The notes under the pieces: generated by a model
The model's input: the letters and a program-made list of their open reading frames with translations, nothing else
What the model was told of the DNA's origin: nothing
The model's database searches: none
Program-made: the position numbers and the translations under genes
In this document: piece by piece, positions 17,004-54,631 of the stretch
How the letters are laid out: the number at the start of each line of letters is the position of its first letter
How positions within the stretch are numbered: position 1 is the first letter of the stretch
NCBI GenBank assembly: GCA_016935665.1
Contig: JAFGQN010000188.1
Span: 1 to 56,902 of the forward strand
Reading direction: 5' to 3'
DNA length: 56,902 nt
From: Deltaproteobacteria bacterium
GTDB lineage: Bacteria > Myxococcota_A > Polyangia > JAAYKL01

Positions 17004-18059
17004 CTACATCCTGCCGGTCACCTTGTACACCCATGCCAGTAATGATGCCACTGCCCCGAACAGTTCTCTGGGAATGGGCTTTCCCACCTTGCCATTTTTG
17101 TAAAGCGATCTCGCCAGAGGCGGGTCAGTCACGACGGGTATGTTATTATGTCGCGCTTCGGCGCGAATTACTGCAGCTACATCATCCACTCCGGCAGCCA
17201 CGATGATGGGCGCTTCATGTTTGGCGACGTCATATTGAATCGCCACCGAATAGTGCGTGGGGTTCACTACCACAACGTCTGCTTCGGCCACGTTCCCTCT
17301 CATGCGAGACATGGCCATCTCTATTTGTTTGCCGCGGATTCTTGATTTGATTCTGGGGTCGCCTTCGGTATCTTTGTGTTCCTGTTTTACTTCGTCCTTG
17401 GTCATTTTCATTTTCTGCTTGTGCCGCCAGCGTTCGATGATCACATCGAGTACTGCGATAAACGCCAGTGCCAGAATAACAATCAGTACAATGCGCAGAC
17501 ACATGCTGCCAATCTTGGACAGAATCTCAAGTGGCGTCAGCCCCAGCAATCGGCCATTGTGTTTCACTTCATCCCATAGCGCGAGGAAGGAAAGCGTACC
17601 GATAATGGCAATTTTCACCAGAGATTTTAAAATCTCATATACGGTGCTTTTTGAAAACAGCATGGATTTTAATTTGGGCAACGGATTAAATCTGTTGATG
17701 TTGGGTTCCATGGGTTGGAATGAGAAATTGAAGCCCACCTGGGCAATCTGCGCCGCCAGCCCCAGGATCAATCCGGTCAACAAAATGGGTGCAATCACAG
17801 TCAGAGTGACGCGAACACCGCGAAAAAAGAAATTGGTAAAGTTCTCATACTTCTCCATATGCCCCAGTGTTCCAGCGGCAAAATGAGTGAGTGTATTGGT
17901 GATGAGACTCCAACCACCCACAACGGCACTGGTTCCCGCCAAAAGAGCAACCACGGACGCCATATCCTGACTTCGTGATACGTCGCCCTTCTCTTTGAAT
18001 CGCTTCTCCTGCTTCGCGGTAGGGTCTTCAGTGCGATCATCCTGGTCAGTATCGGCCAC
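17004..18059 (-). CDS. flhB: Flagellar export protein FlhB
   Basis: About 351 residues. FlhB is the export-apparatus switch that changes substrate from rod/hook to filament proteins. It has an N-terminal charged segment, four hydrophobic helices between ~35 and 210, and a cytoplasmic domain with the autocleavage motif NPTH (VVVVNPTHYSVAI). Translation most likely starts at GTG 18059, which has AGGAGG seven bases upstream; the ATG at 18077 would place that site inside the gene. It is the last recognisable flagellar gene here; flhA does not follow. Confidence 0.96.
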   Translation of the reverse strand: MADTDQDDRTEDPTAKQEKRFKEKGDVSRSQDMASVVALLAGTSAVVGGWSLITNTLTHFAAGTLGHMEKYENFTNFFFRGVRVTLTVIAPILLTGLILGLAAQIAQVGFNFSFQPMEPNINRFNPLPKLKSMLFSKSTVYEILKSLVKIAIIGTLSFLALWDEVKHNGRLLGLTPLEILSKIGSMCLRIVLIVILALAFIAVLDVIIERWRHKQKMKMTKDEVKQEHKDTEGDPRIKSRIRGKQIEMAMSRMRGNVAEADVVVVNPTHYSVAIQYDVAKHEAPIIVAAGVDDVAAVIRAEARHNNIPVVTDPPLARSLYKNGKVGKPIPRELFGAVASLLAWVYKVTGRM

Positions 18060-18073
18060 CTGATTACCTCCTT

Positions 18074-18856
18074 TCAAATGCTCTGGAGCACGTCGCTCAC
18101 TAGTGTGTCAATGGATAAAACGAGGGCTCGCGTGAATGCGACTATATTGGGAACAGCCGCTTTCAGCGATAAAAGACCCACGCCAATGGATACCGCAAAA
18201 CTGAGTACAAACAGATTTACTTTGGGCGCCACGCGCGCCAGCATTCCAAGGGACACCATGACTCCCATCAGCGTCACCAGTACCGGCGCCGCCAGCTGAA
18301 TTGCGGCAGAAAACATCATGCCGCCCTTGCGAACCAGCACAAGACCGGCATCCCCACTGAAAATCACCTGTCCTGGGCCTAAAATGCGAAAGGAATCAAT
18401 AATATACCGAATCAGCAGCAAATGAATATCAAGGGCAAAAAACAGCAGTGTGGCAATCATCCCCAGCAAACGCGCAGTAACCACCGATTGTGCGTTGGAC
18501 AGCGGATCGATAGCCTGGGAAAAACCAAGCCCCATGGGAACCCCAAGTACCTGGCCCGCAGTTTCAACTGCACCAAAAACCAATTGCGACGCCAATCCCG
18601 CACAGGCTCCCAGTGCTGCTTCGCCAAATACAGCAATGATGAGGTCAGTGGGTTCCAAAGAGATGGGCGTCAGATTGGGCAAACCAGTGTACACGGCCAG
18701 TGACATCACAAAAATTGCCGCGGCCAGAATTCGTTTAGGGACGAGATTGCCCCCAAAAGTGGGTATGGCTAAAAGAAGAAACCCCAATCGGGTCATGATC
18801 ATGGTAATGGTCACGAACGTGGGCAGAAGCAACTCCGTGTCCATAAATCCAGGCAT
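18074..18856 (-). CDS. fliR: Flagellar export protein FliR
   Basis: This 260-residue inner-membrane component of the flagellar type III export gate forms a complex with FliP and FliQ. It has five to six hydrophobic segments and the family stretches GFLLLAIPTFGG and VPMGLGFSQAIDP. The start ATG overlaps the fliQ stop as TGATG, with GGAGCGAG ahead of it, so translation is coupled. Confidence 0.96.
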   Translation of the reverse strand: MPGFMDTELLLPTFVTITMIMTRLGFLLLAIPTFGGNLVPKRILAAAIFVMSLAVYTGLPNLTPISLEPTDLIIAVFGEAALGACAGLASQLVFGAVETAGQVLGVPMGLGFSQAIDPLSNAQSVVTARLLGMIATLLFFALDIHLLLIRYIIDSFRILGPGQVIFSGDAGLVLVRKGGMMFSAAIQLAAPVLVTLMGVMVSLGMLARVAPKVNLFVLSFAVSIGVGLLSLKAAVPNIVAFTRALVLSIDTLVSDVLQSI

Positions 18857-19128
18857 CAGCTCGCTCCAAGCGCAACAAACTTCACCATCATTTCATGAAA
18901 AAAAGCAATGAGTTTTCCCATCGACCAATCCCCTACCAGCAACAGTGTGACAAATACCGCACCGAGCTTGGGAACGAACGTCAGTGACGATTCCTGAATT
19001 TGCGTTGCCGCCTGCATCACAGCCACAAACAATCCCACAGCCATCGCTGCACCAAGAGGCGGTCCAATGACAAACAGAACCGTCAGTAAGCCTTCAACTA
19101 CGATTTCAGTGATGAATTCAGAGTTCAT
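18856..19128 (-). CDS. fliQ: Flagellar export protein FliQ
   Basis: This 90-residue protein has two transmembrane helices and is a standard subunit of the FliPQR export gate. The order, length and the motif VAVMQAATQIQESSLTFVPK are typical of the family. It starts one base inside the fliP stop and ends overlapping fliR, so the three gate genes are translationally coupled. Confidence 0.96.
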   Translation of the reverse strand: MNSEFITEIVVEGLLTVLFVIGPPLGAAMAVGLFVAVMQAATQIQESSLTFVPKLGAVFVTLLLVGDWSMGKLIAFFHEMMVKFVALGAS

Positions 19129-19877
19129 TACCCACCTCCGGTAAAGCTTTTAACAATAGACGAAACGATGAGATTCCAACCGTCCACCACTACAAAAAGC
19201 ATGAGTTTAAGTGGCAGCGATATAAGTGCAGGCGGCAGCATGATCATGCCCATGGACATGAGCATGGACGCGATGGCCACATCCAGCACGATAAAGGGAA
19301 TAAAGAGCATAAAGCCCATCTCAAACGCCGTCTTAAGTTCACTGATGACGAATGCGGGAATCAGTGCTCTGAACATCACATCTGTTTCCGTCTTAGGCAA
19401 TGGAAGTTCTGCCACCTCGTAAAAAAGAAGAAGATCTTTTTCGCGGGTATACTTGAGCATAAATTCCCGAACCGGACCTTTGGAGCGCTCAAATGCTTCT
19501 TCATCACTGATTTCCCCCGCCTTGTATGGAATTATTGCATTTTCATTTATTTCCACACCAACGGGCGCCATGATGAAAAACGTTAAAAACATTGCGAGGC
19601 CAATCATCACCTGATTGGGTGGTGCACTCTGCGTACCAATGGCTGTTCTTAAAAATGACAGGATAATCACAATACGTGTAAAACTCGTCAATGTCATCAG
19701 TATGGCGGGAGCCAGTGCCAACACCGTAAGCAACGCCAAAATCTTCAGACCGGTGACCATCTCACCGGGTTCATCAGTGGACCCAACGGAAATATCGATA
19801 CTGGGAGACGCAAACGCACTTTTCGCCAGTGGCAACGCCAATGCCAGTCCGGCAATTATGATTGCGGTGCGTTTCAT
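19128..19877 (-). CDS. fliP: Flagellar export protein FliP
   Basis: This 249-residue export-gate subunit carries a cleavable signal peptide (MKRTAIIIAGLALALPLAKSA), as FliP usually does. The family core is plain: TSFTRIVIILSFLRTAIGTQ, then SAPPNQVMIGLAMFLTFF, and the C-terminal helices with SMGMIMLPP. It lies between fliO and fliQ in the canonical order. Confidence 0.97.
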   Translation of the reverse strand: MKRTAIIIAGLALALPLAKSAFASPSIDISVGSTDEPGEMVTGLKILALLTVLALAPAILMTLTSFTRIVIILSFLRTAIGTQSAPPNQVMIGLAMFLTFFIMAPVGVEINENAIIPYKAGEISDEEAFERSKGPVREFMLKYTREKDLLLFYEVAELPLPKTETDVMFRALIPAFVISELKTAFEMGFMLFIPFIVLDVAIASMLMSMGMIMLPPALISLPLKLMLFVVVDGWNLIVSSIVKSFTGGG

Positions 19878-19883
19878 GGTTCC

Positions 19884-21224
19884 CTATGCCCTGTAGTTGC
19901 TTTCAGTATTGGTGGATTGCTGTTCCAGCGCGGTGCGCATTCTCGCCATGGAAATTAGGCCAGACACATTCGAAGGTGGCTCCGACGCTGAAAATGCGTT
20001 TGTTAACTGAGATGGTGAAATCTGCTGTCGCGCCTCAGTTCTGCGCTTCGATTTCTCTTTGGGTGTATCCCTCTCTCTCACAATTTTGTCGATGGCCTGC
20101 TGAAATTCATATGAAAAATTCGAGGTACCGGTATCGTCACGCTTTGCGGGTGCGGCTTTCTCATCCCTGACTTCAGAATACGGCGTCGCTGATATTTTGG
20201 GTTCTCTGGCCAGGCTGTCTTTTACGGCGTTATTGATTTCGGCCCGCAATCCACTCTCAATGCTCTCTGCTCCGCTCTCACTGGGGATAAGTCCCAAAGA
20301 TGTGACCGTCTTGTCGCCCACAGCCAGAAGAAAGCGACTGCCGTTTACCCTGGCCACCATCAATGTCTGGTGCATCCCCAGCTTTTTGCTCGACAAAATA
20401 TCAATATTGTCTTCCACAATATGACGTCGTGTTTTCTTTTTTTTCATGAACCAGGCAACGAATCCAAGAATGGCCGCAAACAACAGGCCACCGGCGTACT
20501 TCATTGTCTGAGAATTGGTTTGTTCAATTGTCTGCATGGGAGGCGCAGCACTTCTGGACTTATCAAAAATGGTACCCGCCAGTTTGTTGTCCTTCTCTTT
20601 TTTTGAAAATTGATGTTCAGCGGTGACATCGGACGACGCGTTTCCATCGATTTTCCCATTATCTTTTATAATTGCAGGCGCGGGATTTATCGCATCCTCA
20701 GCATCGCTTTTGGAATCAGGCGCAACACTCGCCAATCCCAGTGCAGCCTTTTGCTGCAACAGTGCCATCCGTCTCCGTTTCTGACCATCCGTTAAAACCA
20801 TGGAAACGATCAGATTGCCTTCCAGGGACATTACGGACAATCGATCGCATGCATCCAGTGTTTTGCCGGTGGGGTGAATCTGCAACACGCTGTTGTCGGG
20901 ACCACGCTGTACGACCCGCACTTTTTTGAGAGTGCTTCCACTTGGAATATCCAGTTCGCTGACTTCTCTGTTGTGCAGTGCCAGTCCAAAAAAACGAATG
21001 CGAATGGAGTCGCTGCTGCACACGATTTTTGAATCGTAATGTGCCATTGGCGGTGATACCACAAATCGAACAACATCAGTGGAAGGCATATTTTCAACAA
21101 TCGCTGCAGCAATTCTGGAAGTGCCAGCGCTGCCGGCATCGCTGGAGGACGGTGACGCAACGGCATGCACGCAGAACACCCCAACAGATACCATAGTAAA
21201 AACAGATATGTTAAAGGGCCTCAT
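19884..21224 (-). CDS. fliO: Long FliO-like flagellar assembly protein
   Basis: About 446 residues, much longer than the usual 100-200 of FliO. The N-terminus is a signal peptide. Residues ~50-140 resemble an AMIN-like periplasmic module (VVRFVVSPPMAHYD...SLEGNLIVSMVL). A single transmembrane helix near 240 (GGLLFAAILGFVAWF) precedes the FliO core (KLGMHQTLMVARVNGSRFLLAVG). A ~130-residue charged, probably disordered tail follows. FliO assists assembly of the FliP ring. The call rests on position between fliN and fliP plus the core motif. The ATG at 21224 is preferred over TTG 21230 because GGAG stands seven bases ahead. Confidence 0.8.
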   Translation of the reverse strand: MRPFNISVFTMVSVGVFCVHAVASPSSSDAGSAGTSRIAAAIVENMPSTDVVRFVVSPPMAHYDSKIVCSSDSIRIRFFGLALHNREVSELDIPSGSTLKKVRVVQRGPDNSVLQIHPTGKTLDACDRLSVMSLEGNLIVSMVLTDGQKRRRMALLQQKAALGLASVAPDSKSDAEDAINPAPAIIKDNGKIDGNASSDVTAEHQFSKKEKDNKLAGTIFDKSRSAAPPMQTIEQTNSQTMKYAGGLLFAAILGFVAWFMKKKKTRRHIVEDNIDILSSKKLGMHQTLMVARVNGSRFLLAVGDKTVTSLGLIPSESGAESIESGLRAEINNAVKDSLAREPKISATPYSEVRDEKAAPAKRDDTGTSNFSYEFQQAIDKIVRERDTPKEKSKRRTEARQQISPSQLTNAFSASEPPSNVSGLISMARMRTALEQQSTNTESNYRA

Positions 21225-21226
21225 TT

Positions 21227-21568
21227 TCAATCTCCAATCAAATTGTCTTCCGATGTCTGTTTAAACGGATCTTCTCCCACCACTTCCATCACACGTATGC
21301 CGTATCGTTCTCCAACCAGAACCGCTTCACCCCGGGCAACCAGCTTTCCATTGGCAAAAATGTCCAGATTGTCGCCCGCCGGCCTGTCGAGCTCCACCAC
21401 CGTTCCTGGCATAACTTCCACCAGTTCGCCCATTGTCATTGAGCGACGTCCCACTTCCACTGTCAGTTCGATAGGAATATCGAATAGAAAATTGATGGGC
21501 CGTTTTGCGGCGCCACGGTCTTGAGCTGTTTGCATCGCGCCTCCTTTTTTTTCATTCTCGCTGGTCAT
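21227..21568 (-). CDS. fliN: Flagellar motor switch protein FliN
   Basis: This 113-residue protein has a SpoA/FliN domain forming the base of the C-ring. The signatures are IPIELTVEVGRRSMTMGELV, then GTVVELDRPAGDNLDIFANG and the terminal GERYGIRVMEV. The length and motif match a minimal FliN. Its start overlaps the fliM stop by four bases, consistent with coupled synthesis of switch subunits. Confidence 0.96.
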   Translation of the reverse strand: MTSENEKKGGAMQTAQDRGAAKRPINFLFDIPIELTVEVGRRSMTMGELVEVMPGTVVELDRPAGDNLDIFANGKLVARGEAVLVGERYGIRVMEVVGEDPFKQTSEDNLIGD

Positions 21569-22506
21569 TTCGCTTCCTGTTTCAACCGCCCTATATCCAC
21601 AATTTCAAAAGCCACATGGCCTCTGGATATGGTTGGCTTCCCTTTGAGTTTGTACACGCCGGCAATGACCACATCCAACGGTTCATCTTTAGCGATTCCC
21701 AATGGATATACATCGCCGATTTTCAGATTCCACAAATCGTACGCTTTCATCGACAACTTCCCAAGCTCCATCACCAATTCCACTTTTGCGTTCCTCATGC
21801 GTTCATGCAGCAGAGATTCCCGCACATCGGACTTTTCCATGAACAGCTCGGCCGGCCCTCGTAACCACAATACAATCTCCGGATTCAACGCCGACACAAA
21901 CTGGACATTAATCCAAACGCCGCGCGGTTCCCGCTCCACCCAGAAGTCCTCGGGATTATCGCGCAGATATTTAAACTGCGCGCCTGGCATGGCGATTTCA
22001 AGTTCACGACAAATTTCGATAAAAAAATCGCGAAGCAGCCTATCTTCCAGGATGGTCAGTTCACTTCTTTCGGCAAAAACATCCTCCGAATGAATACCGG
22101 TTCTTCGGGAAATGTACTTCATCGCGCAACGCCGCTCCATGCCCAGCAATATCCGGCTGTCATTGAATGCGATAGTCGCATATTCGGATCCGGAATCGGT
22201 CTGTGCCAGCGGAATCACTTCGGTCATGCCGGACACGGAATGCAACGTGTTGTTTTCCCGTTCGTCCTCAATGGTTCGGACATCCTGAATTTCCAGACGA
22301 CCGCGGCTTGCAAGTCGCTTCACCAAAAGGCTCTCCAGGGCAGGCGCCAATATTTTGGCGGTCTCAGTCCATTTTTTTAAGCACCGCATGTTGTATGCGT
22401 GGTCACTGGCCAGCACATATTCGTCTACCGATTTCTGAGAGGAACTATCCGCTTTCATCGCGGAATATATTGCCTCCAGCTCTTCCTGTGTTAAAATCGG
22501 TTCCAC
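21565..22506 (-). CDS. fliM: Flagellar motor switch protein FliM
   Basis: This 313-residue C-ring protein links CheY-P binding to rotor switching. The N-terminus LTQEELEAIYSAM is a recognisable variant of the CheY-binding peptide. The middle domain contains GMERRCAMKYISRRTG, and the C-terminal ~80 residues form a SpoA domain with LGKLSMKAYDLWNLKIGDV. The middle domain appears less conserved than in enteric FliM. It is followed directly by fliN. Confidence 0.93.
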   Translation of the reverse strand: MEPILTQEELEAIYSAMKADSSSQKSVDEYVLASDHAYNMRCLKKWTETAKILAPALESLLVKRLASRGRLEIQDVRTIEDERENNTLHSVSGMTEVIPLAQTDSGSEYATIAFNDSRILLGMERRCAMKYISRRTGIHSEDVFAERSELTILEDRLLRDFFIEICRELEIAMPGAQFKYLRDNPEDFWVEREPRGVWINVQFVSALNPEIVLWLRGPAELFMEKSDVRESLLHERMRNAKVELVMELGKLSMKAYDLWNLKIGDVYPLGIAKDEPLDVVIAGVYKLKGKPTISRGHVAFEIVDIGRLKQEAK

Positions 22507-22516
22507 GGAAACGCTC

Positions 22517-23011
22517 CTATTGAGTCACAAATTCAGTCAGATAAATGGCGGCTATCCGATCCATATCCAGCCTTTCATTCACTTTCTGTACCAACATCTT
22601 TTCAAGATCCCGCTTTCCTTCTATGGATTGAACCTTTTCCAGTTCGATGGCAGAAAGCTGTAAAAGAATCTCGTTTCGAACAATAGAGAGATACTTTTCA
22701 AACTCGGGCTGATCGTCTGCTGAGTACAGCTGAACCGACATTTTTGTTTTGAGATAACGCTTCTCCCGCGCGTTGGTTAAATTCACCACAAACCCATCCA
22801 ACTCGATGATGGGGCCATCGGTCGAAATGTTTCGACCAGTTCGGGACGATCGCGCCGGGGCATTGGGGTTTGCTTCGTTGACCGCGTCATCCTTATTCAT
22901 TAAAAAATACGCGCCACCTGCCAATGCCGCCACATTTATAATGACCACAATCGCGATAACGAGCCCCTTTTTCGATTTCGGCTGAACAACATCTGCATCT
23001 TCATTGGCCAT
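22517..23011 (-). CDS. fliL: Flagellar stator-associated protein FliL
   Basis: This 164-residue single-pass inner-membrane protein surrounds the stator and supports torque. It has a cytoplasmic N-terminus, one helix (GLVIAIVVIINVAALAGGAYF), a Ser/Asn linker and the periplasmic FliL domain, which includes IIELDGFVVNLTN and RYLKTKMSVQL. It overlaps the end of the upstream MotB-like gene by about eleven bases and stands between the stator genes and fliM. Confidence 0.95.
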   Translation of the reverse strand: MANEDADVVQPKSKKGLVIAIVVIINVAALAGGAYFLMNKDDAVNEANPNAPARSSRTGRNISTDGPIIELDGFVVNLTNAREKRYLKTKMSVQLYSADDQPEFEKYLSIVRNEILLQLSAIELEKVQSIEGKRDLEKMLVQKVNERLDMDRIAAIYLTEFVTQ

Positions 23012-23765
23012 CTTTTTCTTCCTTTCTCAACACAAACCGAATTTTACGCTGCATATCGTTGAACATCTCCGGTTTCATCTTCTTGCCCGGAATGCGCCTT
23101 TGCTGCAGCTCCATCACTATTTCGGTTAAAATATCAGACCCTTCATACCAGGGCCACATGGCAACCACCTTGATGTCCCCTCCCCAGAGCTGAAGCACCA
23201 CAGCCACATCCTGCAGCAGCTTGCGACCGGAGTCGTCCAGTTCTCTGCTGCCATGGGGAAAAAGGAGTCTTCCCGAAATCACCACTTCCACGCCTTCTTC
23301 AATTCGAATGATTTGAACATCTCCAGACAGCTTATCTGCCTGTGCCTTGAGTGTGCTGTACAAACGCTCCATCTCTTTGGGATTTATCATTCCATCGCGA
23401 ACGCCTTTCAAAAAACGCTGCGCTTCCTGTCTTGCCACAGCCACGTCCACCGCGCGCCCTTCTTTGGTCGACGAATCATTTTCCACTTCGCCGATGGGCA
23501 TTAACAATTGAATCAGAGATTCCTCACCTTCTCCGGGTTCTGGAAAGTTCATCACACCGGAAGCCTCATCGAACATGCCAAATGCCTCTTTGAGCGACCG
23601 TTTATCCATGGAAGACATGGTCAGCAGCAATACAAAAAACGTAATCATCAGAAAAATCAAATCCGAAAGGGTATCCATCCACGCGTCGCGGTCCCGCTCC
23701 ACCGGTTTGTCTTCACTTTCTGATTTTTTTGAGGCCCCTTCCGCCATCATACTCGAATCGCCCAC
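23001..23765 (-). CDS. Second MotB-like protein: channel Asp kept, OmpA domain degenerate
   Basis: This 254-residue protein aligns at its N-terminus with the MotB plug/helix region: WMDTLSDLIFLMITFFVLLL, with Asp35 at the position of the proton-carrying Asp of MotB. The C-terminal domain starts like OmpA (EGVEVVISGRLLFPHGSREL), but the GHTD...R peptidoglycan-binding signature is replaced by AMWPWYEGSD and no matching Arg is evident. It overlaps the canonical-looking motB by one base, so the two are made together. It probably supplies the channel Asp of the stator while its neighbour anchors to the wall. This is inference from sequence only. Confidence 0.85.
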   Translation of the reverse strand: MGDSSMMAEGASKKSESEDKPVERDRDAWMDTLSDLIFLMITFFVLLLTMSSMDKRSLKEAFGMFDEASGVMNFPEPGEGEESLIQLLMPIGEVENDSSTKEGRAVDVAVARQEAQRFLKGVRDGMINPKEMERLYSTLKAQADKLSGDVQIIRIEEGVEVVISGRLLFPHGSRELDDSGRKLLQDVAVVLQLWGGDIKVVAMWPWYEGSDILTEIVMELQQRRIPGKKMKPEMFNDMQRKIRFVLRKEEKDGQ

Positions 23766-24475
23766 TATTTCCGTCCTTCCTCGGTGGTTACCACAATTTC
23801 CACCCGGCGATTGGACAGCAACTTATTCTGAGCGTCCAGCACATCTACAGGACTGTAGAAGGAGTGTCCCAGTGCGCTCACGTGTCCTTTTTTAAAATTC
23901 CCCGCCGACTCCAGATGGCGGGCAACCACCATGCCGCGCTCCAGTGAGAGACGCCAATTGGTGCGCAGACGCCCCGTTGCATCGGTGTGGCCGATTACCT
24001 GCACATAGCCATCGTATGCGGCACTCATGCGCGCAATTTCCCCCAACAAATGAAACATCCGTGGTGAAATAACCGATTGCCCCGGTGCAAACAGCAACTC
24101 ATCGGCCACAACTATTTTCACCTCGCCCGACTGTTCTTCGAACGTTGCAAATATCTGAGGTGGCTCATTGGTGTTTCCCGCCATCATTTCCTTGATAACA
24201 TGCTGTACCTTTTGAAAAATGGTGTATCCAGAACCACTCGACAGCAGATCGGACTCAGTTTTCAAATTCTTTTCCTCCTGATCCACGGATGAAGCGCCTG
24301 GTAACAGACCAAATGATCCCAGCAGCGATCCCAACGCCGCCCGCTTCTTTTGCTCGTTCAAAGTGGCCATCGAGTTCAGCAGGATGAAAAACGCAAGCAG
24401 AATCATACTCAGAGTCACAAACAGCAGTCGAAAACTGTTGCTCTCTTTTTCTTCTTCTTCTTCTTCAACGGCCAC
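23765..24475 (-). CDS. motB: MotB-like protein: OmpA domain intact, channel Asp replaced
   Basis: This 236-residue stator-type protein has a run of Glu followed by one helix, SFRLLFVTLSMILLAFFILL. Aligned on the shared LxFF core, the position of the essential MotB Asp is Thr21. The periplasmic part has a full OmpA/MotB peptidoglycan-binding motif (VIGHTDATG...LERGMVV, then GHSFYSPV and NRRVEIVV). It begins three bases after motA. Proton conduction through this subunit alone would not be expected, so it probably works with the following MotB-like protein. Confidence 0.88.
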   Translation of the reverse strand: MAVEEEEEEKESNSFRLLFVTLSMILLAFFILLNSMATLNEQKKRAALGSLLGSFGLLPGASSVDQEEKNLKTESDLLSSGSGYTIFQKVQHVIKEMMAGNTNEPPQIFATFEEQSGEVKIVVADELLFAPGQSVISPRMFHLLGEIARMSAAYDGYVQVIGHTDATGRLRTNWRLSLERGMVVARHLESAGNFKKGHVSALGHSFYSPVDVLDAQNKLLSNRRVEIVVTTEEGRK

Positions 24476-25296: not shown

Positions 25297-25540
25297 CCTC
25301 CACCCTCTTCTGAACCAATCCGCCAATACAACGCTATTATTGTGGAATTTGAACCACTGAACACTGTCGCACTGGTCGTGCTGTCAATGTTTTGACTGCA
25401 AAAGGATTCGAACACCCATTTTTTTGGCGCCTGCTTTTTCTTATGAGATCTCAAGATTTTTAAAACTGAGCCGTACACCATTAGGGAAAACAATTTGTGC
25501 ACCCTGTCCTTTTTTGATTGTGCGGATGGCGATAAAGATA

Positions 25541-26809
25541 ATGTCTGAGCAAAACCAATCAGCATATTTAAAAAGATGCCGTCGGTATCAGCGTATTCGC
25601 AGACCCGGCTTCTTTCAGTTGCGCAAAACGTTCCGTCATTTCCCAGGAGAATGGATTCTGGTGACACTGGACGACGGCATCATCATTGACTGTAGCGTTG
25701 AATTCACCAGGTTAACCGGTTTTCCCAAATCCGCTATTGTTAAACACCCGATCACTCTGTTTTCCTTTTCTGGCAGCGAAATCGGGTGGGGACTTAAACG
25801 ATTGGACCTTGAATTGCTGCAACACAGCGGCAGATACGAAGATGTGGGCCTGACGACACCCGACAAAATATCCATGATATCAGATATTTGGGTAAGCCAT
25901 ATCTCTCATGGCGACGACCGTTGGGCATTGTGTCTGGTTACCGATAAATCGCCGCAACGGCAACTTCAGGGGGAACTCATCGCCAAACACAAAGAGTTGA
26001 AACGGGCCTTTCATCAATTGGAAGAACGTACTGGCGAGCTGGAAGAAGCCAGGGATGCGCTGAAACGAAAAAATCGGAATATCAGTGATCTTTCCGCGCA
26101 ATCCAGAGCCACCGGCGCATTGGCCACTATCGGTGAAATCACCGCAGAATTGACACATCAACTGAACAATCCACTGGCAGCGGCAACAGGCGCCTGTCGA
26201 AAATTGACCAAACTGAACCAATCCGGGCGCACCGAAGAATTTGCTCCCATGCTGCAACTGCTCTCCACTTCATTGCACAGGCTCAAAGAGACCATTGACG
26301 AGGTGCACATTATATACCGACAATCCAGAATGCCTACGACACCAAAGTCTCCAATTCGCGTCCGCGATCAGCTGGATGCGACTCTGGCTCTGCTGGAACA
26401 GCAGCTGGAGGGATTGACGGTCCTGCGTCAGATCCCATCGGATATTCCGGATATATTGGGGCATCCATCATTGTTTCAGCACGTCATTATCAATCTCCTC
26501 GACAACGCCATCGAAGCGTCAGGGGCAGGAGGCACATTGGAAATTGTCGCCAGGCAGGACGGCGATCGGGTGGCCATCAGCATCTCAGATACTGGACCGG
26601 GTATCCCGCCCCATCTTCGGGAGAAAATATTTGAGGCGTTTTATTCCCTGAAAGAAGGGGGTTCAGGATTGGGACTTGCGGCCGTTAAGAGATATGTTGA
26701 GCGAGATAAAGCGACCATTGAAGTGGGTGAATCAAAACTCGGTGGCGCACAGTTTACGATTTGTTACTGGACAACGACAAGTGGTAATGATGCAGAAAGG
26801 AAAGCATAG
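25541..26809 (+). CDS. PAS-type sensor histidine kinase
   Basis: About 422 residues with no membrane segment, so a cytosolic sensor. Residues ~30-140 have PAS character (DGIIIDCSVEFTRLTGFPKS). A coiled coil (~145-200) leads to the phospho-acceptor box ITAELTHQLNNPLAAATG. The ATPase core shows NLLDNAIEA, SDTGPGIPP and GSGLGLAAVKRY. The kinase resembles NtrB/HydH-like enzymes. The response regulator starts immediately after its stop. It is divergent from motA; whether it acts on the motility operon is unproven. ATG 25526 is a possible alternative start. Confidence 0.9.
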   Translation: MSEQNQSAYLKRCRRYQRIRRPGFFQLRKTFRHFPGEWILVTLDDGIIIDCSVEFTRLTGFPKSAIVKHPITLFSFSGSEIGWGLKRLDLELLQHSGRYEDVGLTTPDKISMISDIWVSHISHGDDRWALCLVTDKSPQRQLQGELIAKHKELKRAFHQLEERTGELEEARDALKRKNRNISDLSAQSRATGALATIGEITAELTHQLNNPLAAATGACRKLTKLNQSGRTEEFAPMLQLLSTSLHRLKETIDEVHIIYRQSRMPTTPKSPIRVRDQLDATLALLEQQLEGLTVLRQIPSDIPDILGHPSLFQHVIINLLDNAIEASGAGGTLEIVARQDGDRVAISISDTGPGIPPHLREKIFEAFYSLKEGGSGLGLAAVKRYVERDKATIEVGESKLGGAQFTICYWTTTSGNDAERKA

Positions 26810-27853
26810 ATGAAGTCACAACGTGAATCGGTACTGATAGTCGATGACGACTCTGAAGTACTGACTGCGCTGGATGCCGAGCTCAGCGAATTTTTTGATG
26901 TGACTGCGCTGCTCAGTGCCGAACAGGCATTGGCAACACTGCAGGGACAGTCGTTTTCTGCAATCATCAGCGATGTGAGGATGCCTGGAATCGACGGACT
27001 GACTCTGATTAAAGAATGCGCAGTACGCTATCCGGACATGGTGCGCGTTTTGCTTACGGCGTTTGATGATGAGGATGTTCAGGAAACGGCGCTCGGTGAG
27101 TTTGGCGCGTATAAACTCATAAAGCCATGGGGCGATGACCTCATTGTAACGCTGCAAAACGCGTTAAAGCAGCGAAAGAACAATATTGAACTTCAAAAGT
27201 CCATTGATCTTGGCACCGCCGCCATAGATGTGGATTTGCGGCTTCACCTGCAGTTGTCTCCCAACGAGTTGCTCAGCGCTGTGGCCGCCGAACTTCAACG
27301 CGTTCCCGAAGTCATGTGTCTGACCTTCATTCAATTCAACGATGATGGTCAGATTACACACACCGGGTCTGTGGGAACGGACGATGTCGCCACAGCTCCC
27401 AGACTCACCCGCAAGCGAATGTCCGCCCCGGAGCGGGATGGCGAATTCTACAAGTACACCGTCCCGGTGGGCACATGGCCGGTACCGGTTGCGGTGTACG
27501 TATGCCGGCTAAACAGAGTGAACGACAACAATTTGCGTTACATGGACTTTATTGGACGTCAGGCGTTTCGCACCTGGCTGGTGATCAATCAGAAATCCGG
27601 CACAGATACCCCCCGGCAAACTGTTCCCAGCCTGGCTCCTGGTTCACCGATGGATATAGATATTTCGGACTGGATGACAAGAGAGCTGTCGGTTTCCACC
27701 ACCGTTATTATCAGCGCCACTGAAAGTTTGCGCGAAGAAGCCAGGCGAATTTCCCATAACAATGAGAATGTGGGAGAACTCGAAGACATTGCGTCCGACC
27801 TGGATGCCGCCTATGCGGGGCTCACCAAACTTTTGGAAAAGCTGAAACGATAA
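26810..27853 (+). CDS. Response regulator with unrecognised output domain
   Basis: This 347-residue protein is the partner of the preceding kinase, starting right after its stop with AGGAAAGC ahead. The receiver domain (1-~125) has the acidic pocket VDDD, phospho-acceptor Asp in SDVRMPG, the Thr of LLTAFDD and KPW. This is the NtrC/RpfG style of receiver. The remainder is not a DNA-binding domain that I can recognise. Residues ~150-270 have a GAF-like pattern, and the last ~75 residues are helical (REEARRISHNNENVGELEDI), similar to histidine-kinase-like dimerisation helices. The output is therefore probably protein-protein. Confidence 0.85.
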   Translation: MKSQRESVLIVDDDSEVLTALDAELSEFFDVTALLSAEQALATLQGQSFSAIISDVRMPGIDGLTLIKECAVRYPDMVRVLLTAFDDEDVQETALGEFGAYKLIKPWGDDLIVTLQNALKQRKNNIELQKSIDLGTAAIDVDLRLHLQLSPNELLSAVAAELQRVPEVMCLTFIQFNDDGQITHTGSVGTDDVATAPRLTRKRMSAPERDGEFYKYTVPVGTWPVPVAVYVCRLNRVNDNNLRYMDFIGRQAFRTWLVINQKSGTDTPRQTVPSLAPGSPMDIDISDWMTRELSVSTTVIISATESLREEARRISHNNENVGELEDIASDLDAAYAGLTKLLEKLKR

Positions 27854-50659: not shown

Positions 50660-53600
50660 TCACGGTGAAGACGTTGGCGCTTCACAGCGGGTCGCTGGTG
50701 CGAAATCCCTGTAATTACGATTGGTGTCGATTCCTGCGCCAATTCGGTGATAACAAAGAGCCGACACATTATTCATTGGGGCCCCTTCTTTGGATGTATC
50801 TGTAATAGAAGCCCCCCCCGTGTCAACGCTCTGTATCGTGGGTTTATACTCGCCGCCCACCTGCAGAATATCGGTCGCGCCAGAGCTACAGGAGAAAACA
50901 AGCTTAAAATCATCTCCAACGCTCACTGGAAATTCATTATCCGCACCGGTCGGTATCGTAACAAAAGGTGCATCGCCTGACGCTACAAAAACCCGCCCAT
51001 CATCCGGCACCACAAATCCATCACGAAATGTCTCTATCCACGGTTCATGAATTTCGGTGTCGCTGGGATTGGGATCCACGGTTTCAAGAACACATCCCCC
51101 CGCGTCTGTACCCGGTTCCATCTGCAACTCCACAAACTTGTATATGCCATTCCCCTCCTCCAGACTGACCCGCTGAATAACTGACGCAGGACGAACATTA
51201 ACGGTATAAAAACCTACCGTCCCCAGATGTGATCGCAATCGAATCTCCCTGTTGGCCACATCGTTGGCATCCAGATAAACCAGAGGATCCACCGAACCTT
51301 CCGGGGAATCATCATACTCAATACAGTCGTTGTTTTCATCGCAAATAGCAAATGCCATATCGGGTGTATTTACAACGTCCCCATTGAGAGAACGGGCGGA
51401 GACTTTGACAGCGACCCGACAATTTGCCGATGCATCTGGCAGGGTAAACGATTCTTCATCAAAAGCGGTAGAAATTCTCCCCAACCTCAACCAGGGATGG
51501 AGGCACAAATCAGTGCCCTCGATGGCCTCTTTTTCTGTGGCAACATTGATTACAGAGACCTTGTACGGATCGGGCGAATTCCCCCACATTCGAAAAATAT
51601 CATCAAATGCGCCCAGCAGTACTCCGTTGTCCGGCATCAGTCCGATATTGGGCTCCGATTCGTCCCCAGTGGAGTACAGGATTGATACGGGTATACTCGT
51701 ATACGTTGGGCATCTTGTTTTTTCGGGACCGGGATCCACACAGCTGCCGCGAATCTGAACAAGAGATGCCAATTTTGTGTCCGCTGTCGCAAAGGCATCC
51801 GCATTCAAACTGTTGTTCCCATCGCCATCTTCGGAATCATCCGTTGTCTGAATCTGGTTTTTAGTCGCAAACGTACCGAGCAGAAACATGGGGCCACCAT
51901 GACTGTTTGTGTACGAGTCATCTTCAACCGCGTTGAGTAACGGCGCCAGGCCTTCAGGGTTTTTGAGCGGGAGAGCATCCGGGTCAATTTGCCAATATCC
52001 AATCAACGCGCCTTCACTGGCGGAGATACCAAGGCGCAATTCAGTTGCGGTCCGAAAATACGAGAAATCCGCGCTCAACTGCGCCGAATCGCCGGCTTCA
52101 ATTGGGAAATTGTCGATACGCGCAAACACCTCTTTATTCGCGGCGCGAATCTGCGATACCAAACGACCCAGCACCGGACCGTTCGTTGCGCCGGCCAACA
52201 CCTCCGGCATGGCAATGGTCAACCCCGATACATTATGTGCACCGGGAGCCACATTCACGCTGTTCAGCTGCACTGTCAAAGAGTCATCCTCCTCGCCGTC
52301 GCTGTTCTTTGACACAATTTTTAAGGGGATAACAAACTGATCGCCCCTTGTGGCGACCAACACACCAATCCAACCCCCAGGCCCAGTCTCGTCGAGGCTG
52401 AAAACGATAGTCAGATAATAGTTTTGTTCTTCATACAACGTGTAGTACCGCTCAATGGAAATGCCAATCCCATTAAACACAGACATGGCAAATGGTTTGT
52501 TATGAAACGCCTCACCCACCAGAATCCGAATTTTTCCCTGACCGGCGCTGCGATAAATTTCGCGTTTGTCCTCCGGCAACGAGAATACCGGCTGCGGTAG
52601 CTCCCCCCGAACATTCACAGCCGCTTTACGAACGGAGATGCTGCCGCCTGTGTCGTCAACGTCTGTCACATAAAACGTTTTTAGTCCTGCTTTTGCCGTG
52701 GGAGAAATGCGCAACGACAACCTCAGTCTGTTCTCATCTTCAACGGCAACACTTTCAATCCGAATCGCAGGATCTGAAACAGCAATCTGCGTATCCGCAT
52801 CCACCGTAAATCCCTCTGAAAACAAAATGATTTCCAAAGTGGGGCTCTCCAGCCAAATCACATTGGGCGATGCCGACACCACATAATCGGTCTGGTCGCC
52901 CTTTTTGACACTGAACCAGATACTGCTGTCCACTAAAGAACCTTTCTCAATATTCATCAGAGTCGGTCCGGTTGGCGCATCGTCCAGTACGCGGCATTCA
53001 TTTATCGTTATTCCCTCATATCCAGATGTTCCATCAAACGGTTCCATGGTTGAAGCTGGCTTGGATACGGCTCCAAGCCCTTTTAGGGAAATGCCATTTC
53101 TTGAAGAGACTTTTATCTGACCCTCGCTGACGCCATTTTTAAATGAGCCGGATTGTCGGTACACATTTCGCGTCAGGGCGGAATCCCCCTGCTTGACTGT
53201 CATCGAATCACTGGAGTTCAGGTACGAGCCCCAACGCATCATCGCATTCCCCTGAATATGGCGTACCAGCAAGTGACCGCGCACCTCGCGATTGCCGGAT
53301 GTGAACTGCAGCTCCACATTATCTATATTATTATTTTCCCCGGGATATATCCATAACGCCCAATGGTCGTCCCCGAGGGGCTGGTAGTCCAACACATCCG
53401 CACCTGTGGTAAGGGATTTGATTGTCCAGGTATCGTCCACTGTGTCACCAATGAGATTTGCGATAACGAGCTGGGTGGGGCAGCCATCTGGCACGGATTC
53501 CGAATTCACATCCAGTACACAGTCGTTTATCATCGCTGGACGAAAGCGAATAACGGAATCCGAATAATCAGAGGGCGTTATATTGATGGCGGCATAGGTG

Positions 53601-54631
53601 AGCGTATCCACTCTTCGTGTTTGAATTTTAATGGCTGCAGGACCTAACATGGCACTGTTATCCACCGTTAAATGGCAGGTCACCTGCTCTGCGTTATCCG
53701 ACATATCCGGGCACGAAATTTGAACGCCGGGGTTTTCCGGCACAGAGACTGAAAGCCATGGCGATTCGGTGTCCACCTCATCCGGTTCCGGACGAAACTG
53801 AATGTTCTTTTCAGCTTTCAGTGTCACATCAAATTCATGTTTAGCCTCACCCGCCAGCGGCTTTTTAAACTGAAACGGCGTCATGGTCACTGTGGCGCGA
53901 ACATCAGGCCTGATCTCCAGCTTTTGTCTGTAAACTTCGGAACCAAACACGAAAACAGTGTTCACTTCATCGGTTTTTTTTCCAATTTCGAGTGCCAAAT
54001 CGCCCACGGAAAGAGTGGCAACCGCATCTTTCGGATCCCAGCTCTTATAGTGCATATGATCGTTATTCTCAAACATGACACTGGTGGGACCAGTGGTCGG
54101 AATTTTGATTTTCCCATCCGACACGAGTTTGACGCTCACTCTTGCGTTCGGCGATGCTGCATTCACAAAACCTGGTTCAAACTTCAGTTCATACTTTTCA
54201 GCGCGCCTTTTAATCGAAAAGTCTGCCGATATAATGTGCCTGGAATCGCATGAAAATTGCAGCGCCAGCGCCCCCGCCGGCGCGTCGCCGCCAATTTGGA
54301 AGCGCAGCGTCATTTGCGACGCAGTCACCTGCTTTATACCGGATATGTATATTTTTTTTGCGGAAACAGGCTCATTATCACTGAAAAAGCTAAACCGGGA
54401 GGCAACCTTCTGCACAGGCTCCCTATCCCATCCCACCAGCGAAGCACATTGGTGAAACCCGGCACCGACTGAAACAAACTCCACAGCAATCTCAGAATTC
54501 TGATAACCGGAAGATGGAAAAAGTCCCCCTGCCGACTCCAATTGCGTATCGTTTGCAGGAGAACATGCAAACATTCCGAGTGCAATCAGCACACAAATAT
54601 GCCATGTTCTCAAAGCTCTACTTGCAAGCAT
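50660..54631 (-). CDS. Giant secreted lipoprotein, Ig/IPT-like repeats
   Basis: This 1323-residue protein has a lipoprotein signal with lipobox GMFAC. The mature region is beta-rich throughout, with recurring strands such as IQIRETLRF-type and LSLRISPTAKAGLKTFYVTDVDD. These suggest about ten Ig/IPT-like units, which fits a surface stalk or adhesin. No catalytic motif is visible. The C-terminus contains several Cys and ends without a transmembrane tail. An inverted repeat CTCCTC-GGG-GAGGAG lies just upstream of its AGGA ribosome site (54648-54662). It converges on the DUF507 gene. Confidence 0.82.
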   Translation of the reverse strand: MLASRALRTWHICVLIALGMFACSPANDTQLESAGGLFPSSGYQNSEIAVEFVSVGAGFHQCASLVGWDREPVQKVASRFSFFSDNEPVSAKKIYISGIKQVTASQMTLRFQIGGDAPAGALALQFSCDSRHIISADFSIKRRAEKYELKFEPGFVNAASPNARVSVKLVSDGKIKIPTTGPTSVMFENNDHMHYKSWDPKDAVATLSVGDLALEIGKKTDEVNTVFVFGSEVYRQKLEIRPDVRATVTMTPFQFKKPLAGEAKHEFDVTLKAEKNIQFRPEPDEVDTESPWLSVSVPENPGVQISCPDMSDNAEQVTCHLTVDNSAMLGPAAIKIQTRRVDTLTYAAINITPSDYSDSVIRFRPAMINDCVLDVNSESVPDGCPTQLVIANLIGDTVDDTWTIKSLTTGADVLDYQPLGDDHWALWIYPGENNNIDNVELQFTSGNREVRGHLLVRHIQGNAMMRWGSYLNSSDSMTVKQGDSALTRNVYRQSGSFKNGVSEGQIKVSSRNGISLKGLGAVSKPASTMEPFDGTSGYEGITINECRVLDDAPTGPTLMNIEKGSLVDSSIWFSVKKGDQTDYVVSASPNVIWLESPTLEIILFSEGFTVDADTQIAVSDPAIRIESVAVEDENRLRLSLRISPTAKAGLKTFYVTDVDDTGGSISVRKAAVNVRGELPQPVFSLPEDKREIYRSAGQGKIRILVGEAFHNKPFAMSVFNGIGISIERYYTLYEEQNYYLTIVFSLDETGPGGWIGVLVATRGDQFVIPLKIVSKNSDGEEDDSLTVQLNSVNVAPGAHNVSGLTIAMPEVLAGATNGPVLGRLVSQIRAANKEVFARIDNFPIEAGDSAQLSADFSYFRTATELRLGISASEGALIGYWQIDPDALPLKNPEGLAPLLNAVEDDSYTNSHGGPMFLLGTFATKNQIQTTDDSEDGDGNNSLNADAFATADTKLASLVQIRGSCVDPGPEKTRCPTYTSIPVSILYSTGDESEPNIGLMPDNGVLLGAFDDIFRMWGNSPDPYKVSVINVATEKEAIEGTDLCLHPWLRLGRISTAFDEESFTLPDASANCRVAVKVSARSLNGDVVNTPDMAFAICDENNDCIEYDDSPEGSVDPLVYLDANDVANREIRLRSHLGTVGFYTVNVRPASVIQRVSLEEGNGIYKFVELQMEPGTDAGGCVLETVDPNPSDTEIHEPWIETFRDGFVVPDDGRVFVASGDAPFVTIPTGADNEFPVSVGDDFKLVFSCSSGATDILQVGGEYKPTIQSVDTGGASITDTSKEGAPMNNVSALCYHRIGAGIDTNRNYRDFAPATRCEAPTSSP

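Follow-up and report, generated by a model that had tools for sequence, protein, structure and literature searches.

A conserved pair of adjacent MotB paralogs, one of them without the channel aspartate, and a candidate heterotypic flagellar stator

Introduction

Does a flagellar stator need two ion sites? The question is raised by an operon in the window, i.e. the whole stretch of myxococcotal DNA analysed here (56,902 nucleotides), in which two adjacent genes for MotB-like proteins follow a single motA gene and only one of them encodes the aspartate of the ion channel. According to PMC6677748, only Glu can stand in for this Asp, and every other substitution leaves the protein completely dysfunctional. 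An old family of MotB proteins without Asp, always paired with an Asp-bearing MotB, would be a natural test of the need for two sites. Such a pair also bears on the number of ions consumed per turn and on the asymmetric seat of the MotB dimer in its ring.

Results

The operon and its two MotB proteins

The operon is encoded on the minus strand in the order motA, B1, B2, fliL, fliM, fliN, fliO, fliP, fliQ, fliR, flhB, with both MotB paralogs (here B1 and B2) between MotA and FliL (Table 1). A sequence-only reading of this DNA had described two neighbouring, translationally coupled MotB proteins with complementary defects. The open reading frames, their lengths and their positions were confirmed, and the stop codon of B1 (TAG) overlaps the start codon of B2 (GTG) by one base (TAGTG, at 23765). 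Genes for a histidine kinase and a response regulator lie divergently from the stator operon (25424-27853, plus strand). Elsewhere in the window, a 1323-residue open frame (50660-54631, minus strand) had no Pfam match at 1e-3.

Table 1. Positions of the stator genes, key codons and downstream flagellar genes in the window.
Feature	Position	Strand	Basis
MotA, PomA-like, 256 aa	24479..25249	-	Pfam MotA_ExbB 98.3 bits; phmmer to Vibrio PomA 7e-64
B1, Asp-less MotB paralog with intact peptidoglycan motif, 236 aa	23765..24475	-	MotB_plug and OmpA Pfam matches
B1 Thr21 codon ACT, opposite PomB D24	24413..24415	-	alignment to PomB
B1 Asp165 codon, putative peptidoglycan-binding Asp of GHTD	23981..23983	-	motif residues in alignment
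B1 Arg180 codon, putative peptidoglycan-binding Arg	23936..23938	-	motif residues in alignment
B2, MotB with channel Asp35, 254 aa, GTG start	23001..23765	-	Pfam, PomB alignment, model
B2 Asp35 codon GAT, opposite PomB D24	23661..23663	-	alignment to PomB
FliL	22517..23011	-	Pfam FliL 61.6 bits
FliM	21565..22506	-	Pfam FliMN_C; precedes FliN
FliN	21227..21568	-	Pfam FliMN_C 79 bits
fliO, fliP, fliQ, fliR, flhB, remaining flagellar operon	17004..21230	-	Pfam FliO, FliP, Bac_export_3, Bac_export_1, Bac_export_2

B1 matched the Pfam families MotB_plug (28.7 bits, cut-off 24) and OmpA (37.6 bits), and B2 matched MotB_plug (45.5 bits) and had no OmpA match. D24 of Vibrio PomB aligned to Thr21 of B1 and to Asp35 of B2, as the sequence-only reading had proposed. 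That reading had also raised the alternative that another Asp of the shorter protein occupies the channel position; this is excluded, as no acidic residue was found in the B1 helix scanned from F15 to M36. Thr occupies the Asp column in five relatives of the same clade as well (L099, L108, L120, L134 and L143). A sequencing error or local decay behind Thr21 was ruled out by the relatives without Asp. Thirteen residues past the Asp column, Asn or Thr is conserved in B1 (43 and 12 of 56, respectively; Asn34 in the window, 24374-24376), and the residue opposite in B2 is Leu, Val or Ile.

The claimed contrast between the OmpA motifs held too: the peptidoglycan-binding residues (GHTD with D165, R180 and NRR) are all present in B1, and the equivalents of all three are absent from B2. 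B1 of the window is a putative peptidoglycan-binding protein, judging from the intact motif and the OmpA match. AlphaFold2 models, built on alignments of 28 sequences, placed the B1 helix at residues 8-38 and predicted an OmpA-like C-terminal domain in both proteins, with a pLDDT of about 76-93 over residues 160 to 250 of B2. In Foldseek searches, the best PDB matches of the B2 model were the periplasmic domains of MotS and MotB, and the B1 model matched OmpA-like domains including those of PomB, MotB and MotS. The OmpA-like domain of B2 is predicted to have kept its fold and lost its binding residues.

MotA, the driving ion and the number of stators

The window MotA aligned to PomA with matching GTL and LLTT segments, so that equivalents of PomA T158, T185 and T186 are present. 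Among the MotA proteins of pair operons, these residues were found in 55/55, 54/55 and 55/55 cases, respectively. In PomAB, T158, T185 and T186 hand ions to D24, and the two D24 residues differ in state, one being engaged and the other disengaged, according to the accessible part of PMC10374538. Since MotA carries the threonines of the Na+ type, the driving ion is probably Na+. The MotA proteins of 92 pair operons were compatible with a single clade (p-AU 0.80).

The genome to which the window belongs (8.16 Mb, 95% complete) contained two MotB_plug matches, which were B1 and B2. FliG_C was matched once in it and flagellin-N seven times. The MotA_ExbB family had 14 matches, and the window MotA alone was clearly flagellar among those examined; phmmer with this protein gave E-values of 2e-4 or worse in the six other MotA_ExbB loci examined (L003-L008). 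A second stator that would make B1 irrelevant was rejected, with no other MotB_plug match in the genome and no other clearly flagellar MotA among the examined loci. The pair made up the only MotB_plug matches (exactly two) in at least 16 of 29 distinct genomes (from a set of 30 in which G393 duplicates G001); one of the 29 (G385) showed B2 alone by MotB_plug, and the remainder had three to five matches.

Distribution of the pair and of the channel aspartate

In a sample of 377 genomes from the phylum of the window (Myxococcota), 15 strong B1-like loci were found, each preceded by MotA and followed by a second MotB. Thirteen of these B1 proteins lacked the Asp and two (L014, L019) had it; 13/377 is the nearest thing to a frequency estimate and is a lower bound. 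A profile of the 13 proteins was used to scan named genomes and yielded 80 loci in Myxococcota, Desulfobacterales/Desulfobacteraceae (Thermodesulfobacteriota), Zetaproteobacteria (Mariprofundus, Ghiorsea), Nitrospirota, Nitrospinota, Tectomicrobia, Sumerlaeota and, in divergent form, Thalassospira; the records are mostly metagenome bins, and individual taxon labels may be wrong. The column of the channel residue held Asp in 0/80 B1 and in 79/79 readable B2 proteins. Its replacements in B1 were Ala, Ser, Thr and Cys, and Glu in Zetaproteobacteria. The scan pattern (FFI[LM]L...) falls after this column and thus did not select on Asp directly. In 198 genomes of the phylum of locus L101, 22 of the best 40 places were B1 loci without Asp (23 including L101).

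After clustering at 95% identity, 100 of 108 first copies were without Asp (Ser 42, Ala 29, Glu 21, Asp 8, Thr 6, Cys 1, Gly 1) and 106 of 106 second copies had it; the searches favour B1-like proteins, and these counts describe the features of B1, not how common it is. Single MotB proteins taken for comparison had the Asp in 11/11 and 12/12 cases. Glu in this column was limited to the B1 type of Zetaproteobacteria (L086, L088, L091 and relatives), in which a Gln follows four residues on.

B2 adjoins B1 in 121 of 123 B1 loci, and the remaining two (L160, L175) reach the edge of their contigs. MotA precedes B1 wherever the contig is long enough, with the exception of six Thalassospira loci. The sequence-only reading would have been refuted by relatives in which one copy alone suffices. 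Operons with a single MotB in the same slot do exist (L073, L074, L078-L080), but that MotB is complete in each; neither a B1 alone nor a degenerate B2 without B1 was seen among the loci examined.

Several other arrangements were observed. In Thalassospira (e.g. L151, 4168-5738), an Asp-less single-helix gene is followed by a MotB gene with no MotA nearby; the genes preceding this pair are presumably cheY- and cheZ-like, the names being our reading of the sequences. In loci L193-L197, two MotB genes in tandem both encode the Asp, and no MotA was found within the 8.5-9.5 kb examined. Other families of Myxococcota (L013, L015-L018, L020-L024) have a separate MotA-MotB-MotB tandem in which each MotB carries the Asp and the first has a degraded OmpA end. 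Searches of plasmids with tblastn gave distant OmpA/MotB matches only.

Age of the paralogs and conservation of their helices

Phylogenies were quick trees with SH-aLRT support only, in which several rows had long branches; rows that were near-duplicate or truncated, as well as many zetaproteobacterial ones, were omitted, and N-termini were trimmed. In a tree of 145 rows, a single branch (SH-aLRT 98) separated all 61 B1 rows from the rest. Of the 61 B2 rows, 58 grouped together (97), the other three being from Thalassospira. The tandem pairs of the other myxococcotal families (L013, L015-L018, L020-L024) fell apart from both. In a wider tree of 151 rows, the Asp-bearing first copies L193-L197 were placed outside the B1 group, for which reason B1 needed two changes rather than one; the Asp state changed three times in all. 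Most parsimoniously, the Asp was lost once, long ago, and regained twice (in L014/L019 and L191). B1 and B2 appear to be ancient, specialised MotB paralogs with an old B1 group, as far as the trees of these sequences go.

In L014, L019 and L191, the B1 helix carries the Asp and shares 69-77% identity with the helix of the neighbouring B2. In 113 Asp-less pairs, the corresponding identity averaged 34% and never exceeded 50%. This looks like N-terminal gene conversion, in which the B1 helix was copied from B2 (L014, 3776-4654; L019, 3922-4740; L191).

The mean identity among B1 proteins of 56 pairs was 0.61 in the transmembrane helix, 0.50 in the plug region and 0.31 in the OmpA domain, and that among B2 proteins was 0.71, 0.36 and 0.29, respectively. 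FliL, which is encoded in these operons and crosses the membrane once, served as a control and had 0.33 in its helix versus 0.37 in its domain. Because the FliL helix shows no such excess of conservation, the B1 helix does more than anchor the protein. The helices of B1 and B2 seem to hold equivalent places. Since the B1 helix is strongly conserved, and since a B2-type helix was regained in two or three lineages, it probably lies inside the MotA ring.

These results bear on the alternative that the channel is an ordinary MotA5:B2:B2 complex and that B1 is a peptidoglycan-binding accessory outside the ring, which would position or stabilise the stator in the manner of FliL or MotY/T-ring proteins. 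B2 possesses everything that conduction needs, its peptidoglycan motif is also present in a third of the pairs (27/81; see below), and B1 is encoded near fliL, whose product is said to stabilise the stator in the accessible part of PMC10374538. However, the helix and plug of B1 match MotB_plug and are far better conserved than the rest of the protein, unlike the helix of FliL, and the replacement of the B1 helix by a B2-type helix in three lineages fits a place inside the ring. B2 homodimers in the lineage of the window would, moreover, be without a peptidoglycan motif. We therefore consider the accessory role unlikely. Still far less credible, to the point of being nearly negligible, is that B1 is a functionless, decaying duplicate. 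The loss of a residue held to be essential would fit decay, but the reading frames are intact, the helix is conserved in several phyla, B2 always adjoins, and the B1 proteins form one old group.

Peptidoglycan-binding motif across the pairs

With a strict definition of the motif (G-H/Y-x-D plus Arg), 81 non-redundant pairs were scored. The motif was present in both copies in 28 pairs, in B2 only in 27, in B1 only in 17 and in neither in 9. As independent losses would give 11.6 pairs of the last kind, compared to the 9 observed, there is no overall complementarity, and a general rule of complementary OmpA losses was rejected. Judging from the distribution of the motif in these sequences, complementary loss is a feature of lineages. 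The window and most of the Myxococcota examined are of the type with the motif in B1 only, and some Myxococcota have lost it in both copies. The B1 proteins of the Desulfobacterota-like type (sulfate reducers) mostly have Met or Ser in place of the peptidoglycan-binding Arg, and the motif is kept in both copies in Zetaproteobacteria. Most B2 proteins of L161-L171 have the motif. Loci L063-L067 are examples of pairs with the motif in neither copy. In the nine pairs of this kind, anchoring must work in another way, because neither copy has the motif.

The proposal of the sequence-only reading, a MotB split into an anchor and an ion-channel subunit, accordingly stands for the lineage of the window, in which the peptidoglycan motif and the ion site would be combined only in a B1:B2 pair. 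It fails as a general rule, given the four classes of pairs above and the OmpA fold that B2 is predicted to have kept.

The distribution of the motif is also relevant to a further alternative, namely ion-dead MotA5:B1:B1 units that rival the active ones, as brakes or place-holders. In favour of it, B1 has the full length of a MotB but no ion site, and its gene and that of B2 stand beside a single motA. However, B1 and B2 are encoded 1:1, in most loci with short gaps or overlaps between the genes, and such units would waste half of the MotA; in the lineage of the window, the active B2:B2 units would also be left without a peptidoglycan motif. We regard this alternative as quite improbable.

Discussion

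A candidate heterotypic stator with one ion site

We consider it likely, from the conserved pairing of the genes and the sequences of their products, that B1 and B2 together with one MotA form a heterotypic stator, most likely MotA5:B1:B2; we infer both the heterodimer and the 5:1:1 stoichiometry. In such a stator, B2 would be the source of the sole aspartate in the ion path, and the conserved, ion-dead helix of B1 would occupy the other of the two MotB positions inside the ring of MotA. In the lineage of the window, B1 would also tether the unit to peptidoglycan. Several observations count against this reading. B2 alone has both the Asp and the peptidoglycan motif in the 27 pairs with a B2-only motif, and a B2 homodimer could therefore serve there. 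The nine pairs with the motif in neither copy need some other means of anchoring. The Asp is kept in eight of the 108 first copies; five of these (L193-L197) are of a separate kind with no MotA nearby. The Glu of zetaproteobacterial B1 may work as an ion site, and in the wider tree B1 needed two changes rather than one.

In the turnstile model, as far as the available text of PMC9389320 describes it, a turn consists of ten equivalent 36-degree steps when there are two sites. A two-site stator would thus pass one ion per 36 degrees and 10 per turn, whereas a stator with one site would pass one ion per 72 degrees, or 5 per turn of MotA. The five 72-degree steps and five ions follow from applying the same turnstile rules, and the step size is to be taken as calculated from them. 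If the heterotypic stator exists, it would need half as many ions for each turn of the MotA ring, and its periodicity would be five-fold instead of ten-fold. Perhaps the Glu of zetaproteobacterial B1 is a second, weaker working site. The broader proposition, that MotA5:MotB:MotB' motors with a single ion site, five-fold periodicity, a fixed inner asymmetry and peptidoglycan anchoring that varies among lineages are widespread, is put forward tentatively, and we doubt it slightly more than we trust it.

Relation to known stators

The conserved asymmetry of the flagellar stator is real and apparently undescribed. The broadest stator survey found (PMC12505986) covered 205 genomes and, in the text available, named the B gene by its position directly downstream of A; its main text contains none of 'aspart', 'two copies' and 'tandem'. 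Searches of open PMC text found nothing on tandem, heterodimeric or Asp-less MotB or on Desulfovibrio DVU0048-0050.

Vibrio PomAB (8BRI, 8BRD; accessible part of PMC10374538) resembles the system of the window in several respects: PomA is the protein that the window MotA most resembles and shares the three threonines, B2 has equivalents of D24 and T21 of PomB, and B1 and B2 both have the helix-plug-OmpA layout. In contrast, the Vibrio stator contains two copies of a single protein, PomB, and so two D24 residues, whereas here there are two proteins and one Asp. The H+-driven MotAB stators of 5:2 stoichiometry (6YKM, 6YSF, 6YSL) were matched by the window MotA with E-values of 5e-24 to 1e-61, and the periplasmic folds matched as well; they differ in having two nominally identical MotB subunits and a ten-fold periodicity (available text of PMC9389320). 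The mixed stators of Shewanella and Bacillus likewise involve more than one stator type per motor, but according to PMC9039648 they are mixtures of complete MotA/MotB units, while here two MotB proteins of one operon share one MotA.

Comparison with NCBIfam, which includes Pseudomonas MotC/MotD and Bacillus MotPS, gave PRK08944 ('MotB family protein') and PRK09038 (MotD) as the best MotB-type models of B1. B1 belongs to none of these families, since its scores (76 of 259 and 72 of 283 bits, respectively) are far below the curated cut-offs. MotD and MotS carry the channel Asp. Two B-type subunits encoded in one operon are reportedly also found in a related 5:2 motor, that of Xanthomonas ExbD1/ExbD2, which, unlike the pair described here, is not a flagellar stator. 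In Desulfovibrio vulgaris, genes presumably occur in the order motA-OmpA-motB.
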